Below, piece by piece: positions 9,301 to 60,105 of a stretch of DNA of 64,000 nt. The notes under the pieces were generated by a model. The model ran no database searches. It was not told the origin of the DNA and saw only the letters and a program-made list of their open reading frames with translations. This stretch comes from Bifidobacterium thermophilum DSM 20210 (lineage in GTDB: Bacteria > Actinomycetota > Actinomycetes > Actinomycetales > Bifidobacteriaceae), in assembly GCA_000771265.1 (NCBI GenBank), contig JDUB01000001.1, forward strand, positions 248,001 through 312,000, read 5' to 3'. The position numbers were made by a program, and so were the translations under genes. Positions within the stretch are counted from its first letter, which is position 1. Each line of letters starts with the position of its first letter.

Positions 9301-9521
9301 GAATTCTCTTCCGATAACGCGACGGGACAGGCGCCGCGACGAATGATCCGGAATCGGGGCGGGGAAACAGAATTCCCCATGATTCGCATTGCCTTCTCTT
9401 TTATAACCGTCGCGCCCGACGCGCCGGGGCGATGACGCGAAGGGTTCCACGATGTGGACAGGGAACCGCCGGGGAGGAAACGCGTGCGACGAATGTTACC
9501 TCCCTGCGCAACAATGGGAGC

Positions 9522-10880
9522 ATGACTTTGAGTGCAGTTCCAGCATGGCAGTTTTCCTCAGCGCAGGGCGAGGCGAATTATCAGGCCGCGTTGCGTCAAT
9601 ATCCGGCGCAGGCGATCGTCGACCTCGCGGCGATGCGCGAGAATATGAGGCATTTGGTGTCCGTGGTCGGTGGCCCCCAGTCCGGCACCGCGGTGATGGG
9701 CGTCGTCAAGGCGGATGCGTACGGGCATGGGTTGATTCCGTCCGCCCTCGCCGCGCTCGCGGGAGGCGCCACATGGCTCGGCACCGCGCAATCGCATGAG
9801 GCGCTGCTGCTGCGCAAGGCCGGAATCGGCCCGGACCGTTGCCACATTCTTACATGGGTGTACAACGGCACGCAAGTCCCGTTCGATGAGCTGATCGCCA
9901 ACGATATCGACGTTTCTGTCGGCTCTCTCGCTGGCATCGACGCGCTCGCCGCGGCCGCACGTAAGGTGGGGCGTCCGGCGCGCGTCCATGTGAAAGTCGA
10001 TTCCGGGTTTGGCCGCAATGGCTTCACTCCGCAGGGCTTCGGCGCGGCGCTCGATAAGCTGGTGCCGCTTGCCAAGGAAGGTGTGCTCGATATCATCGGC
10101 CAGTGGAGCCACCTGGCGGTCGCCGATTCGCCGGATGTTCCGGAATTCGTCGACGCGACCGACCAGCAGGTCGCCACCTTCAACGAGTTCACTCAGCGGA
10201 TGTGCGCAGCTGGAATCGCGCCGAAAATCAGACATCTGGCCAATACCGCGGCCACGCTCGACCGCCCGCAGATCCATTTCGAACTCACCCGGCCGGGCGT
10301 CGGCCTGTACGGCTATGAGCCCGATCCGGCGATGGGCACGCCGCAGACCTACCGTTTGAAGCCGGCCATGACTTTGCAGGCGCAGCTTGGCACGGTCAAG
10401 GACGTGGAATCCGGTCACGGCATCTCCTACGGCCGCACCTATCTGACGCCGCAGGCCACGAGCACCGCGATCGTGCCGGTCGGATACGCTGACGGCATTC
10501 ACCGTTCCGCATCCGGATTCGATATGCAAGGCGCCAAACACATCACCAAGCTTGGCGGCCCGGTGCGTGTCATGACCGAACAAGGGCCGAAGCTGTTGCG
10601 CGTCTCCGGGCGTGTGTGCATGGACCAGTTCATCCTCGACCTGCACGGCAGCGCGGCGGAAATGGGCGTCCATGAGGGCGACACCGTTGAACTATTCGGT
10701 CCGGGCAGGGGAGAGGACTACGCTGAACCGACCGCGGACGACTGGGCACGCGCGGCGGACACCATCAGCTACGAGATTTTCACTTGCCTGCGCAACCGCA
10801 TCCCGCGCCTGTATCTGCACGCGCCCGAGGTGCTGCCCCCTGAGGATTTGGCGAAACTCGATCCGGCGAGCATCCTGTAA
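9522..10880 (+). CDS. alr: alanine racemase
   Basis: PLP enzyme of 452 aa interconverting L- and D-alanine for peptidoglycan. The cofactor lysine lies in the N-terminal motif VVKADAYGHG. The VDSGFGRNGF and RPGVGLYGYEP motifs are present. The C-terminal domain carries the catalytic tyrosine region (GISYGRTY), VPVGYADG and SGRVCMDQ. At 452 residues it is longer than most Alr proteins (about 370-400), mainly through N- and C-terminal extensions. The ATG at 9522 has only a very close GGGAG, so the start is less certain than the identity. Not obviously in an operon. Confidence 0.94.
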   Translation: MTLSAVPAWQFSSAQGEANYQAALRQYPAQAIVDLAAMRENMRHLVSVVGGPQSGTAVMGVVKADAYGHGLIPSALAALAGGATWLGTAQSHEALLLRKAGIGPDRCHILTWVYNGTQVPFDELIANDIDVSVGSLAGIDALAAAARKVGRPARVHVKVDSGFGRNGFTPQGFGAALDKLVPLAKEGVLDIIGQWSHLAVADSPDVPEFVDATDQQVATFNEFTQRMCAAGIAPKIRHLANTAATLDRPQIHFELTRPGVGLYGYEPDPAMGTPQTYRLKPAMTLQAQLGTVKDVESGHGISYGRTYLTPQATSTAIVPVGYADGIHRSASGFDMQGAKHITKLGGPVRVMTEQGPKLLRVSGRVCMDQFILDLHGSAAEMGVHEGDTVELFGPGRGEDYAEPTADDWARAADTISYEIFTCLRNRIPRLYLHAPEVLPPEDLAKLDPASIL

Positions 10881-10889
10881 TCAGGGCCG

Positions 10890-10951
10890 AAGCGGGAAGC
10901 GAGGCGGTTTCAGGTGGCATGGCGTGCGACGCCTGTCAGGCCGCCCCGCTT
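10890..10951 (+). terminator. probable alr terminator
   Basis: A long imperfect hairpin begins 10 nt after the alr stop. AAGCGGG at 10890-10896 pairs with CCCGCTT at 10945-10951, with GGCGG/CCGCC and CAGG/CCTG inner pairs. Confidence 0.55.
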
Positions 10952-10995
10952 GACCGCTTGAGTACTTGATTGCTTGACTGTTTGGGTGCTTCGGC
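10948..10995 (+). repeat. period-8 tandem repeat, six units
   Basis: Six consecutive octamers of consensus RCTTGANY: GCTTGACC, GCTTGAGT, ACTTGATT, GCTTGACT, then the more diverged GTTTGGGT and GCTTCGGC. The tract starts at the end of the alr hairpin. A related six-unit tract lies on the opposite strand at 58794-58841. Confidence 0.8.
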
Positions 10996-11144: not shown

Positions 11145-12431
11145 ATGACGACTACAGCCGACGGCGAACGTGTGCTCACCACTGAAGGGTATTGCGCGGC
11201 GGACGAAGAGCGCTGGGCGCCTGAACCGCCGAAATCCCCGTCGCGCACGGCGTTCCAGCGCGACCGGGCGAGACTGATTCATTCGTCCGCGCTGCGCAGG
11301 CTGGGCGGTAAAAGCCAGATTCTGGTCGCAGGAACCGACGATTTCGCTCGCACGCGATTGACGCATACGCTCGAAGTCGCGCAAATCGGCCGGCAAATCG
11401 GCGCTCTGCTCGGCTGCGATCCCGACGTTGTCGATTGCGCGTGCCTCGCACACGACCTAGGGCATCCACCATTCGGACACAACGGTGAACGCGCGTTGGC
11501 GGCAATCGCCAAAGACATCGGTGGATTCGAAGGTAACGCGCAGACCTTGCGATTGCTGACGCGACTGGAGCCGAAAATATTCCTTCCCGACGGGCGGTCC
11601 GCCGGAGTCAATCTGACGCGCGCTGCATTGGACGCCGCGGTGAAATACCCGTGGACGCTTCGCGAGGCGGCCGCTCACCCTAAAGGGGAGCGTAGCGTGA
11701 AATTCGGCGTCTACCCAGACGATGAGCCGGTGTTCCATTGGCTCAAGCAGGGGGCGCCCGAGGCCAGTACGCCGATGGAATGCCAAGTGATGGACCTATC
11801 TGACGACATCGCCTATAGCGTGCATGATATTGAGGATGCGATTGCGACCGGCACACTGAATCCGGTGGCGCTCGCGGATAATCGCACGGTGGACCGGGTG
11901 GTCGAATCGGCGCGCGCATGGTATGGGCGGCAGTGGGACCCGGACCTTCTGCTGGCGGCGGTGCTCCGGCTGCGTGACGGACAACTTCTGCCGAGTCGTT
12001 TCGATGGTTCCCGGCAGGCGTTGGCGCAGTTGAAGAACATGACCAGCGCGTTGATCGGCCGTTTCGCCGGATCGGTGGAATCGGCCACACGGCAACGGTA
12101 TGGTACCGGGCCGTTGACCCGGTACGCGGCGCATGTGGTGGTGCCTGACCGGACACGCTATGAGATTCTGGCGCTTAAGGGGATGTCCGTGTATTTCGTC
12201 ATGGCTCCCCGCGAACGTGAGCCGTTCCATGAGCAAGAGCAGCGAATTGTCACCGATTTGGTGGATGTGCTTATGGCTGACTCGCCGAGGCCGAGCGACG
12301 CTCTGGAGACGGTGTTCCTCGATGACTGGCGGCAGGCGTCGAATGATGACGAACGGCTGCGCGTGGCTATCGACCAGGTGGCGAGCCTGACGGACGGGTC
12401 GGCGGCGACCTTGCATTCGATTCTGTGCTGA
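11145..12431 (+). CDS. dgt: deoxyguanosine triphosphate triphosphohydrolase-like HD-domain protein
   Basis: HD-superfamily phosphohydrolase of 428 aa. Dgt-type enzymes remove triphosphate from dNTPs, often dGTP. The sequence shows the family N-terminus SRTAFQRDRARLIHSSALRRLGGKSQI and TRLTHTLEVAQIGR. The metal-binding HD pair is His103-Asp104 in CLAHDLGHPPFGHNGE. A second metal ligand region MDLSDDIAYSVHDIEDA is also present. The length fits the short actinobacterial dGTPase-like group. The ATG at 11145 is preceded by a weak GGGAAAGGGCGG ribosome site. dnaG follows after 130 bp, a common actinobacterial gene order. Confidence 0.92.
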   Translation: MTTTADGERVLTTEGYCAADEERWAPEPPKSPSRTAFQRDRARLIHSSALRRLGGKSQILVAGTDDFARTRLTHTLEVAQIGRQIGALLGCDPDVVDCACLAHDLGHPPFGHNGERALAAIAKDIGGFEGNAQTLRLLTRLEPKIFLPDGRSAGVNLTRAALDAAVKYPWTLREAAAHPKGERSVKFGVYPDDEPVFHWLKQGAPEASTPMECQVMDLSDDIAYSVHDIEDAIATGTLNPVALADNRTVDRVVESARAWYGRQWDPDLLLAAVLRLRDGQLLPSRFDGSRQALAQLKNMTSALIGRFAGSVESATRQRYGTGPLTRYAAHVVVPDRTRYEILALKGMSVYFVMAPREREPFHEQEQRIVTDLVDVLMADSPRPSDALETVFLDDWRQASNDDERLRVAIDQVASLTDGSAATLHSILC

Positions 12432-36605: not shown

Positions 36606-36823
36606 CCGCCGACGCTGAGCATGTTGTCAGTGTCGGCGGTCTGTTTCTGCCGACGTTGAGGTGCCTGTCAGTGTCGGTAGAGGGTCGCGATTCTGTTTCT
36701 GCCGACGCTGAGCGCCGAGTGAGTGTCGGTAGAGGGTTGTGGTTCTGTTTCTGCCGACGCTCACCGCCGTGTCAGTGTCGGTGGAAGGTTGTGCCTACGC
36801 TGCGGGGGTTGTCAGCGTAGGCA
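36606..36823. repeat. array of five short palindromic repeats (family B)
   Basis: Five inverted repeats follow one another between the Fur-family gene and the metal-binding lipoprotein gene. The arms are of the type TCTGCCGACGCTGA and TCAGTGTCGGCAGA. Copies: 36606-36639, 36646-36681, 36698-36733, 36750-36785 and a diverged one at 36792-36823. Starts are spaced about 42-52 bp and separated by short T-rich or GGTTGT tracts. The same family recurs at 43346-43514. Confidence 0.88.
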
Positions 36824-43345: not shown

Positions 43346-43514
43346 TTCTACCGACGCTGACAAGCCACTGAGTGTCGGCAGAAGGTTGTGACGACACTCA
43401 CAAGCGCCCCAACATCGGCAGAAGATTCTACCGATGCTGACAAGCCATTCAGTGTCGGCAGAAACAGAACGATATCTTCTGCCGACGCTGACGGGGACCT
43501 CAGCGTCGGCAGAA
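43346..43514. repeat. array of four family-B palindromic repeats
   Basis: Inverted repeats at 43346-43383, 43386-43423 (degenerate), 43426-43463 and 43477-43514, with arms of the type TTCTGCCGACGCTGA and TCAGCGTCGGCAGAA. The last copy is a near-perfect 14-15 bp palindrome. The array ends 17 bp before the stop of the MprF-like gene and may also terminate its transcript. Confidence 0.88.
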
Positions 43515-56641: not shown

Positions 56642-58708
56642 TCACTGCACGCTGAGATGCTGCGGTTGCGAGGCTTGCCCGGTGCTGGAGGCGTTGAACC
56701 CGATTTCCGCACTGGCACCCGCTTCGATCGCCGTATTCCAATCCATGGGCGCGACCACATAGTGTGCGCCTTCATGACTGACGATGGTGCCGCCCCAGAT
56801 GTCGGCGATTTCGGCGTCGAGGTCGAAGGTGACTTGCCAAGCGCTCTCATGCTTGCTGTCGGACGCATTACTCACGGTGATGGCGTACGTCGCCCCGGAA
56901 TTCCATTGGTTGCGTATCGCAGCTGTGGCTTTGAGACCCACCGACGCCACGGACGGGGATGATGAAGCGGAAGCGGATGACTTCTTCCCGTTGCCAGCTC
57001 CGGCACCCGAAGAGGCTTTCGACGAGCCGGAGGATGTTCCCGATGCCGCATGGTCGGCAAAATCGGTGAGTTTGCGGCTGGTGTTGACCAGCCAGATTGC
57101 GCTCGGCGTCAGGTCGTCACCTGTCCACCCGGAAGTCGCGGTGACGGACGGCTTGAAGAATGCGGCGGTCTCCGCCTTGTTTGACAGCGCCCATGCCGCA
57201 TAGCTGATGTTGTTGTGGGCGAGCAGGGTCATCCATGCGTTGGCGCTGTCCTGGTCGATTCCGCCGTTGCCTGACGCGTCGCACAGTCCGAATTCGCTGA
57301 CGAAGACCGGCGTACCCGCATTGAGCGCGATCTGAAGCTTCGCCCGCAGATCGTCTTTGTGCGTGGCGGCATAGAAATGCAGCACATACATGATGTTGTC
57401 GAACCCGTCCGCGGAGAGCGGCTTGCCTGCGACTGCGTCGATATCCTGCGACCACGTATTGGTCCCGCACAGGATGATCGCATCGCTGCCGGCGTCCCGG
57501 ATGGCTTTGGCCATGCGCGTGCAGTAGCTGTAGATGTCATTGCCTGAGCCGTCGTACCACGGCGTGCCGGTGGGCTCGTTGCATACTTCGAAGATTACGT
57601 TGCCGTAAGACTTGTATTTCGCCGCGTAGCTCTTGAAGAACGATTCGGCTTGGGCCACGTCGTCGTTGGGGTTGTAGTTCAGTACATGCCAGTCGATGAT
57701 AACGTACATGCCCAGATCGGTCGCTGCCTGGACGCCCTGCTCGATTGTCTTGTCCATCTGGGCCTGCGAGCCTTGCAGATACCCGCCTTCCCGCGGATAC
57801 ACGGCCAGACGGACCATATTCAGACCCCATTCGTCGCGCAACGACTGGAACGCTGCTCTGTTCACGTACTGTCCAAACCATTGCAGGCCGTGGGTGCTTG
57901 CGCCCCGCAGTTGGAAGGGCATACCGTGCTCATCGAGGATTGTGGGCGCGCTCAACCCGTCTGTTGTGCCTACCGATAGCTTGCCATGTTTGCCATATGG
58001 GGTGTCGCTTGCTGCCAGATTGGTGGTTTTCCCGGTGACTTGATAGGCAAGTTTGTCCGCGCCGGCATCTGCTGTGAAGGATTGCATCGCCTTGATATAG
58101 TCTGCTGCGCTTGCCGTTCTGGAGGATTTCGCCGGTGCCCCCGCGGTTGTGCCGTTCGAGGCGTGGGCTGTTTGCCGAGCGGTATTTTGCCGTTGCCGGT
58201 AGGTGGTGATGGCGATTGCCGTTCCCGCTCCGGCGAGGAAGATGACGATGGCTGCCACGACTGCAATCAGTCGTCGTGCGAGCTTGCTGTTGCTGGGCTT
58301 GCCAGGCGTCCCGCGGTGTTTGGAACCGCGTGCCCTATGCGACGTGTCCTGCGCGGTTGTGTCGTCTGTCGTGGCTGTGTCTGCCGTGCGTTCCGGACGC
58401 CCGACATCTTGGCTTGCCGCCGATGGGTCACGGGCCGCGTCGGAACGATCAAGCTGGTTGCCGGTTGACGTGCTGCTGCCTAGCGAAATGCTATCTGACT
58501 GTTCACTGACCGATTGCCCGCCGACCTGCGCCACAGACCCGTCGGCTGGCGGAAGTTGCCGCGTCTGGCTCACCGTGAAGTCGACGGTCGGCGCATCATC
58601 GTGGATGTCAGCGGTCCGCGGGGCGGGCGCGATGTCGCAGGCGTCACTTGCCGAATCCCCAGAAGCACCCTGATGCGTTGTCTGTTGTTCGGTATCGTCT
58701 GCGTCCAT
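56642..58708 (-). CDS. membrane-anchored GH5 endoglucanase-like glycosidase with C-terminal CBM2-like domain
   Basis: Protein of 688 aa. A long acidic Ser/Thr/Asp-rich cytoplasmic N-terminus (1-140) leads to a basic stretch and a membrane anchor (LIAVVAAIVIFLAGAGTAIAI, about 147-167). The GH5 barrel follows: LRGASTHGLQWF, WGLNMVRLAVYPREGGY, acid/base Glu378 in EVCNEP, and nucleophile Glu472 in VSEFGLCD. After a Ser/Gly linker (about 575-610) a CBM2-like beta domain (RNQWNSGATYAITVSNAS to DIWGGTIVSHEGAHYVV) ends the protein. A surface-tethered beta-glucanase is inferred; GH5 covers many beta-glucan and mannan activities. GGAG precedes the ATG at 58708. Confidence 0.9.
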   Translation of the reverse strand: MDADDTEQQTTHQGASGDSASDACDIAPAPRTADIHDDAPTVDFTVSQTRQLPPADGSVAQVGGQSVSEQSDSISLGSSTSTGNQLDRSDAARDPSAASQDVGRPERTADTATTDDTTAQDTSHRARGSKHRGTPGKPSNSKLARRLIAVVAAIVIFLAGAGTAIAITTYRQRQNTARQTAHASNGTTAGAPAKSSRTASAADYIKAMQSFTADAGADKLAYQVTGKTTNLAASDTPYGKHGKLSVGTTDGLSAPTILDEHGMPFQLRGASTHGLQWFGQYVNRAAFQSLRDEWGLNMVRLAVYPREGGYLQGSQAQMDKTIEQGVQAATDLGMYVIIDWHVLNYNPNDDVAQAESFFKSYAAKYKSYGNVIFEVCNEPTGTPWYDGSGNDIYSYCTRMAKAIRDAGSDAIILCGTNTWSQDIDAVAGKPLSADGFDNIMYVLHFYAATHKDDLRAKLQIALNAGTPVFVSEFGLCDASGNGGIDQDSANAWMTLLAHNNISYAAWALSNKAETAAFFKPSVTATSGWTGDDLTPSAIWLVNTSRKLTDFADHAASGTSSGSSKASSGAGAGNGKKSSASASSSPSVASVGLKATAAIRNQWNSGATYAITVSNASDSKHESAWQVTFDLDAEIADIWGGTIVSHEGAHYVVAPMDWNTAIEAGASAEIGFNASSTGQASQPQHLSVQ

Positions 58709-58793
58709 GGTGGCTCCTTCGTCGGTGAGGGGATGCTCGCTGCTGCTGCTCCGTCGGCGGTGGTGGGATGCGTGACGATAACAGCCGCCGGGC

Positions 58794-58841
58794 AGCCAGG
58801 CAGTCAAGTAGTCAAGTAGGCAAGTAGGCAAGCGGCCAAGT
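58794..58841 (-). repeat. period-8 tandem repeat, six units
   Basis: Read on the plus strand the units are AGCCAGGC, AGTCAAGT, AGTCAAGT, AGGCAAGT, AGGCAAGC and GGCCAAGT. On the minus strand they become RCTTGNCY octamers matching the tract at 10948-10995. The tract lies just beyond the hairpin at 58856-58892. Confidence 0.82.
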
Positions 58842-58855
58842 GACTAGCCGTTCAG

Positions 58856-58892
58856 GCGCCCAATCGGCTGGGCAGCCAGACCGATTGGGCGC
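58856..58892 (-). terminator. hairpin downstream of the HicB-like gene
   Basis: A perfect 12-bp stem (58856-58867 and 58881-58892, 13-nt loop) begins 33 nt after the stop of the minus-strand gene at 58925. No T-run follows. Confidence 0.6.
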
Positions 58893-58924: not shown

Positions 58925-59800
58925 TCAGGAGGTGGCGTTGTAGACACGCTCGCCGTAAGGTGTTGGAGGCTGCTCGCCGCGTTTGTACATGTTGTTCACC
59001 CAGCGTTCGGAGGCGTCGATGATGCCTTGCAGGGCTTGCAGAGGAGTTGAAGCGACCCAGCTTAGCCCCGGCAATTCCAGCACGGTGCCCACGTAGGTGT
59101 GGTGTTCCGAAGACCATTGGATGCTGTAGATGTACCTGTCCACAATGCCGTGGCTGACCGGCTCGGCATCGAGTTCAGCCTTGGGGAAGGACCCGGTGAG
59201 CTGCCCCGGAGCGTCCATGGGTGTTGTCACCGGTGCGCTATGGGCAACAGGGGTAGAGGTGCCGCTGTGCGCGACGCGTGGGGATGATGCAGGCGTGGAT
59301 GAGGTTGCTCGGTGCCGTGCCCGGCTTGGTTGCAGTGATGTCATTTCTGGTGTGCTCTCATGTGTGGTGGGGAATGTCGGGGATGGGGATTGCGTGTGTT
59401 CGGGCGCGTGATCCATGGCGGGAGCGTCTTGCGTGGCTGACGGTTGTTGCGAATCGGACGGTTGTGCGTGCGCAGGCACGTCTTTCAATGTATTCACCGA
59501 CGCATCCGCCGAGGCCTGCGGCGCCTCGTCCTCATCATCGTCATGGATGACCGGGTGGGCGTATTGCCGCAAAATGCCTACGAATTCATCGTCCTTCATC
59601 TCTCCAAAGCTGCGATAATGCCTGTCGAGTGCAAGGTTGACCATTGCCCGCGAGGCGCTGTTGATATTGCTTTGCAGCGACTCTTCGTCATCCCCGTTGA
59701 ACTGCCAGTCATTGGCTGCGATGTAGTCTCTGATGCAATTGCGGGCGGCCATGCCGTTGATCTGGGCTATGTCGAAGTCGATGACGATATCGTCGGCCAT
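58925..59800 (-). CDS. HicB-like domain protein with long disordered linker
   Basis: Protein of 291 aa. The N-terminal 90 residues (ADDIVIDFDIAQINGMAARNCIRDYIAANDWQF) are acidic and helical and not recognised. A Pro/Ser/Thr/Ala/His-rich low-complexity linker spans about 90-225. The last 60 residues (YIYSIQWSSEHHTYVGTVLELPGLSWVASTPLQALQGIIDASERWV) match the HicB antitoxin-type partial RNase H fold. No HicA toxin gene is adjacent, and the usual HicB DNA-binding tail is missing. A classical toxin-antitoxin role is therefore doubtful. GAAGGACGCGG precedes the ATG at 59800. Confidence 0.72.
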   Translation of the reverse strand: MADDIVIDFDIAQINGMAARNCIRDYIAANDWQFNGDDEESLQSNINSASRAMVNLALDRHYRSFGEMKDDEFVGILRQYAHPVIHDDDEDEAPQASADASVNTLKDVPAHAQPSDSQQPSATQDAPAMDHAPEHTQSPSPTFPTTHESTPEMTSLQPSRARHRATSSTPASSPRVAHSGTSTPVAHSAPVTTPMDAPGQLTGSFPKAELDAEPVSHGIVDRYIYSIQWSSEHHTYVGTVLELPGLSWVASTPLQALQGIIDASERWVNNMYKRGEQPPTPYGERVYNATS

Positions 59801-60105
59801 GCCGCGTCCTTCCTCGTACGTTCCCGTTTCCATGCCTTGGGCGGCATGAAAGCTTCTCTGTGCCTCTTTCCCGTATCATACCGCACCGGGAAGTCCGACA
59901 GGTACGGCGATGATATCGTTAACAACCGCGCGTGTCGTACGTTGCGAATCGTTGACGGCGACGCGCTAGCATGGTGATGAGAAACGACTTGCGTGCCGGC
60001 GCGTGCCGGCTGGACGTATGCGGTCAGGACGACGGGGCAGTCGTCGTGATTTGATGGTCCGCGCGATTCGTGCGCAAAGCGAGACGATCCGGATGGAGGC
60101 GGCAG

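Follow-up and report, generated by a model that had tools for sequence, protein, structure and literature searches.

Phase-variation tracts are slippage-prone short repeats that lie near genes. Among the other short repeats of prokaryotes, the long simple sequence repeats (Mrazek et al., 2007, as described in the consulted part of PMC4679880) have units of 1–11 nucleotides, an origin by slippage has been proposed for them, and units that are a multiple of three are likeliest to occur in coding DNA. The same part of PMC4679880 presents the TAACTGA direct repeats of Beggiatoaceae and some Cyanobacteria, which are intergenic, arranged head to tail and for the most part observed directly before start codons. 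Here, we consider two degenerate period-8 arrays, sharing a CTTG core, in a 64,000-nucleotide stretch of a Bifidobacterium genome (contig JDUB01000001.1, positions 248,001 to 312,000), to which we refer as the window. Both tracts are very probably decaying short tandem arrays in spacers that tolerate changes of length, without a common sequence-specific function.

The arrays resemble phase-variation tracts in being short, slippage-prone repeats near genes, but their copies are probably too divergent for frequent slippage at present, and we know of no phase-variable function for the genes that flank them. With the long simple sequence repeats, as far as the consulted part of PMC4679880 goes, they have in common the short units, the proposed slippage origin and the bias of triplet units towards coding DNA. 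Those repeats are perfect, however, whereas the arrays here are degenerate, and a survey for exact repeats would probably miss many of them. Like the TAACTGA repeats described in the same part of that source, they are intergenic head-to-tail short repeats; unlike them, two sets here share one unit, and units unrelated to it form repeats as well. A dispersed one-unit family of the TAACTGA type, with its many sites, is not what the strict pattern reveals, as it occurs at two sites. No paper describing such arrays in Bifidobacterium was among the matches listed in the literature search, within the bounds of the library searched, and the consulted part of PMC4060949 makes no mention of Bifidobacterium. 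The octamer arrays most likely fall among the short tandem repeats born by slippage (degenerate microsatellite or cryptically simple DNA).

Array 1 (10946–10994, plus strand) lies in the spacer between alr and dgt and consists of about six units, CCGCTTGA CCGCTTGA GTACTTGA TTGCTTGA CTGTTTGG GTGCTTCG. Array 2 (58784–58841, minus strand), flanked by a weakly HicB-like gene and the gene for a GH5 cellulase, has about seven, ACTTGGCC GCTTGCCT ACTTGCCT ACTTGACT ACTTGACT GCCTGGCT GCCCGGCG. Their lag-8 scores of 19 (10946–10994) and 31 (58784–58840) both exceed the period-8 maximum of 16 reached in 30 third-order Markov simulations of the window, so both period-8 tracts are real. An earlier sequence-only reading had reported two octamer arrays near these coordinates, and they were recovered from the sequence itself as well as by lag-8 scoring. 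In the window, CTTGNNNNCTTGNNNNCTTG has 13 matches with at most two mismatches, against a mean of 3.34 over 100 shuffles, and eight of the 13 fall inside the two arrays. The consensus RCTTGANY assigned by that reading fits four of the six units at 10948–10995 (units 5 and 6 are GTTTGGGT and GCTTCGGC) but only two of six at 58794–58841, where its variant RCTTGNCY fits five of six; given the fit of the former to four and two units, the arrays are worn. The length of 48 bp attributed to both holds when six units are counted, while the lag-8 segments measure 49 and 57 bp. Provision of stop codons in all frames was rejected as a purpose of the arrays, since the sense strand carries four TGA in array 1 and two in array 2 and the trait is not common to both.

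Both octamer tracts belong to a general class of intergenic short-period arrays. The general scan (periods 5–23, not divisible by three, score of at least 17) used an own-genome sample of 779,500 of 2,224,837 bases, 82% of which was called coding, with genes predicted by a codon-usage script rather than an annotation pipeline; a 454-base contig (L072) included in early own samples was later left out. In this sample, periods not divisible by three gave 40 intergenic arrays and no coding ones; periods divisible by three gave 18 intergenic and 48 coding arrays. The samples from other genomes hold two coding arrays with a period not divisible by three, one in genome G084 and one in the sample others7. 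Sampled own spacers of at least 40 bp (138 kb) contain 37 arrays, corresponding to 31 distinct tracts, against 0–1 in each of 20 dinucleotide-preserving shuffles, the figure of 40 above stemming from a slightly wider spacer definition. Array periods in the own sample range from 5 to 20. Period 8 accounts for seven of the 37 arrays and for none in all 20 shuffles, and the repeated units differ widely (GGTCATGC, GACATGAC, CGTCATCT, TGCGTTCC and the CTTG octamer). Set against these seven in 138 kb is a single period-8 array in 199 kb of spacer from nine other Bifidobacterium genomes, three of the eight having been known before the scan. Two properties expected of slippage-born repeats are therefore present: head-to-tail copies beyond chance and, in the own sample, confinement of non-triplet units to non-coding DNA. 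The suggestion of the sequence-only reading that the octamers could be slippage-prone tracts agrees well with this abundance, far above shuffles, of many units and periods in the sampled intergenic DNA.

The commonest periods in the sampled own spacers are 8, 10, 13 and 14, and those in genomes G075 and G007 mostly 19–20. The preferred array period may differ between Bifidobacterium species.

At orthologous sites the arrays are not conserved. The alr-dgt spacer measures 264 bp in the own genome, against 84 bp in B. thermophilum, 84 bp in B. boum and 117 bp in B. apri; array 1 is not present in the spacer of any of these three nearest named species. All 34 named-species loci fetched around alr lack the three-copy CTTG pattern on both strands. 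When the 300-base alr-dgt spacer region was searched as DNA against 112 genomes, it gave two short matches besides itself, one being a period-8 array of genome G067 (76% identity over 55 bases, with unmatched flanks). As for array 2, the two flanking genes occur in the same order in genome G008. DNA identity over the end of the upstream gene is 81%, and the product of the next gene is about 65% identical to the GH5 cellulase gene product over 433 aligned positions. The orthologous spacer of G008 has no CTTG array and carries a short CGTCTGAACGTCTGAAC repeat of its own. The sequence-only reading had made its proposal depend on conservation in sister strains; at the level of near species, conservation is missing from the orthologous spacers, for array 1 as well as for array 2.

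The further arrays that the same reading anticipated elsewhere in the genome did not appear either, as a whole-genome search with the strict three-copy pattern CTTGNNNRCTTGNNNRCTTG returned the two arrays only; weaker CTTG arrays were not sought genome-wide. CTTG was also rejected as a preferred core of the genus, being neither the rarest nor the commonest among the cores tried. With a narrower pattern, it was found at period 8 in nine of 112 Bifidobacterium genomes, own included, against nine for the control core TTCG and five for TCTG, and at period 9 in 16 of 112. Controls with reversed patterns matched 4 (period-8 CTTG), 21 (TTCG), 5 (TCTG) and 23 (period-9 CTTG) of the 112. Many matches to these patterns are only three units long, and the TCTG match in genome G058 is a tetranucleotide run. 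This run (G058:C2:1045114-1045197, loci L143–L148, in another Bifidobacterium) is unbroken over about 84 bp and is a candidate phase-variation tract. In a further Bifidobacterium, locus L150 (G022:C1:69089-69156) carries about nine regularly arrayed TTCGACTA/TTCGTCTA octamers.

Most likely, the two tracts are ordinary tandem repeats that have decayed, and the sampled spacers of the genus abound in such repeats. Such arrays would be born by replication slippage or by duplication of a short unit in spacers tolerating length change. Arrays of very different unit sequence and length would arise in Bifidobacterium spacers and then decay, and coding DNA would exclude all but those whose unit length is divisible by three, since any other unit disrupts the reading frame. 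In array 1 the mean copy identity falls from 5.8/8 between neighbours to 4.0/8 between the ends, not quite steadily, and in array 2 from 6.33/8 to 4.0/8; a fall of identity with copy distance is what stepwise duplication predicts.

Several points weigh against this explanation. The comparison of copy identities is biased, in that lag-8 detection favours like neighbours and the end copies are the most worn, and among four other arrays identity falls in G084, L061 and L118 but not in L067. The comparisons cover a single genome of each species. The likeness of units between the two arrays is reached by only 32 of 5000 column permutations, both arrays lie within one 64-kb window, and both follow a stem, with the same orientation relative to the genes. 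The seven own period-8 arrays of the sample form 21 pairs, among which the present one, with a similarity of 5.05, comes third (after 5.11 and 5.10); as two other pairs are more alike, the coincidence of units is not exceptional across all pairs.

Binding of a protein to the arrays is unlikely. In its most explicit form, this explanation takes the octamers as binding sites, an operator or an iteron-like cluster, of a regulator for dgt and the GH5 cellulase gene, which we regard as improbable in spite of the common core, the same orientation relative to genes, the position of both spacers 5' of a gene and a unit similarity above that of column permutations in 4968 of 5000 trials. The helical pitch of DNA is about 10.5 bp. 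Since a period of 8 bp falls short of a helical turn, neighbouring sites point in different directions, and the spacing near whole helical turns that marks regulator arrays is not found at a period of 8 bp. Cooperative binding on successive turns, as put forward in the sequence-only reading, finds no support, given this period, the lack of a third strict array and the missing arrays in the spacers of near relatives. Moreover, sampled own spacers in which the arrays were masked contain eight CTTG pairs at spacing 8, compared to 0–12 at the remaining spacings between 4 and 24; this lack of an excess, together with the absence of a third strict array, argues against regulator sites, as does the existence of two array pairs with more similar units. 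The promoter scan, which did not cover other promoter types, found no sigma-70-type promoter near either array. The arrays themselves, whose repeated TTGACN resembles a -35 box, were likewise rejected as promoters, there being no sigma-70-like site in either region. As features the two arrays matter little, and annotation as a regulatory element is not supported.

A role in the transcript, e.g., as a termination or mRNA-end element acting together with the adjoining stem, appears quite improbable. Both arrays do follow a stem downstream of a gene, and only 8 of 200 shuffles fold as well as the RNA of array 1 (z -1.81), but that of array 2 is unstructured, 124 of 200 shuffles folding at least as well. 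The stems, evaluated by folding against shuffles, differ between the loci in strength and in distance. Before array 1, a weak G+C-rich stem (10903–10945, plus strand) adjoins the array but is unremarkable (-24.7 kcal/mol, z -1.08); before array 2, the stem-loop (58856–58892, minus strand) is strong (-31 kcal/mol, z -7.13), yet 14 bp separate it from the array. As to their earlier description as terminator-like, neither has a T-run, and terminator scans of both regions found no terminator. Similarly improbable is the idea that one array seeded the other or that both stem from a small dispersed element: they do lie within 48 kb and have a common unit, but the own spacers are not similar outside the arrays (blastn-short, E 0.01), and the 3 kb around either own locus and around the same-core arrays in eight other Bifidobacterium genomes have no mutual DNA similarity (E 0.001, arrays masked), so that the CTTG-core arrays are not copies of one locus.

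If the tracts are slippage-born and decaying, repair may have a part in their abundance. MutS (PF00488) and MutL (PF01119) domains were not found in the own genome, each being found in 11 of 14 control genomes, and NucS (PF01939) was found in the own genome. According to the consulted part of PMC5290159, MutS-MutL is missing from almost all Actinobacteria, and according to that of PMC8228993, NucS repair acts on transitions and cannot correct indels. The lack of MutS/MutL loop repair would let arrays grow or persist. We infer slippage as the process and the missing loop repair as the enabling factor. It is a tentative, rather doubtful proposal that Bifidobacterium spacers are continually remade by the birth and decay of arrays of arbitrary unit, owing to reliance on NucS without MutS/MutL. 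If true, the two octamer arrays would be snapshots, and spacer sequence would be renewed faster by slippage than by substitution.

Tract densities agree with such a link but are only suggestive, being inseparable from kinship and base composition. Ten Bifidobacterium genomes have 64 tracts in 337 kb of spacer (19.0 per 100 kb), 31 of them in the own genome. Five other actinobacteria without a MutS match have 4 in 40 kb (9.9 per 100 kb), four MutS-bearing actinobacteria 3 in 54 kb (5.5 per 100 kb), all in G245 (36.4 per 100 kb), and the E. coli sample none in 37 kb. The MutS-bearing and MutS-less actinobacteria were picked for long contigs, and G084 and G075 for CTTG arrays, the sampled part including the array in G084 and not in G075. 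The 34 named-species loci, all around alr (11 tracts in 30.9 kb), do not enter this comparison. The link with MutS is weak for several reasons. The density comparison is confounded with kinship and base composition, and MutS status was checked in one of the ten Bifidobacterium genomes. Zero tracts were found in the Bifidobacterium genome G019 and also in the MutS-less G166 and G176, one from the same order, the other from the same class. Furthermore, the consulted part of PMC8228993 raises the possibility that actinobacterial DnaE itself removes nearly all short indels. Still, the wider pattern is noteworthy: degenerate arrays are plentiful in the sampled bifidobacterial spacers, nearly absent from shuffled own spacers and absent from the E. 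coli sample. A mutational origin of spacer sequence, linked to repair, thereby becomes open to direct testing.

Upstream of array 1 lies alr (9522–10880, plus strand), assigned to alanine racemase by Pfam, with the start as predicted and the first start of the open reading frame at 9432; downstream lies dgt (11145–12431, plus strand), a dGTP triphosphohydrolase gene by NCBIfam NF002829. Array 2 is preceded by the weakly HicB-like gene (58925–59833, minus strand), whose start may lie further in, and followed by the gene for a GH5 cellulase with CBM2 (56642–58708, minus strand; Pfam). The earlier HicB-like label is retained in this weakened form, as the matches are all sub-threshold (HicB_lk_antitox, E 0.073; UPF0150, E 0.09–0.28). 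The alr-dgt region had no match among 72,556 plasmid records. The Alr protein of the window shares 98% identity with its counterpart in B. thermophilum, 96% in B. apri and 95% in B. boum, and judged by sequence the window comes from a Bifidobacterium that belongs to the B. thermophilum group. Elsewhere in the window, distant tandem arrays of longer unit are present at 36640–36793 (52-bp unit, three copies) and 43346–43463 (40-bp unit, three copies); their consensus units have a common CCGACGCTGA / TCAGTGTCGG inverted-repeat core and may form one hairpin-repeat family.
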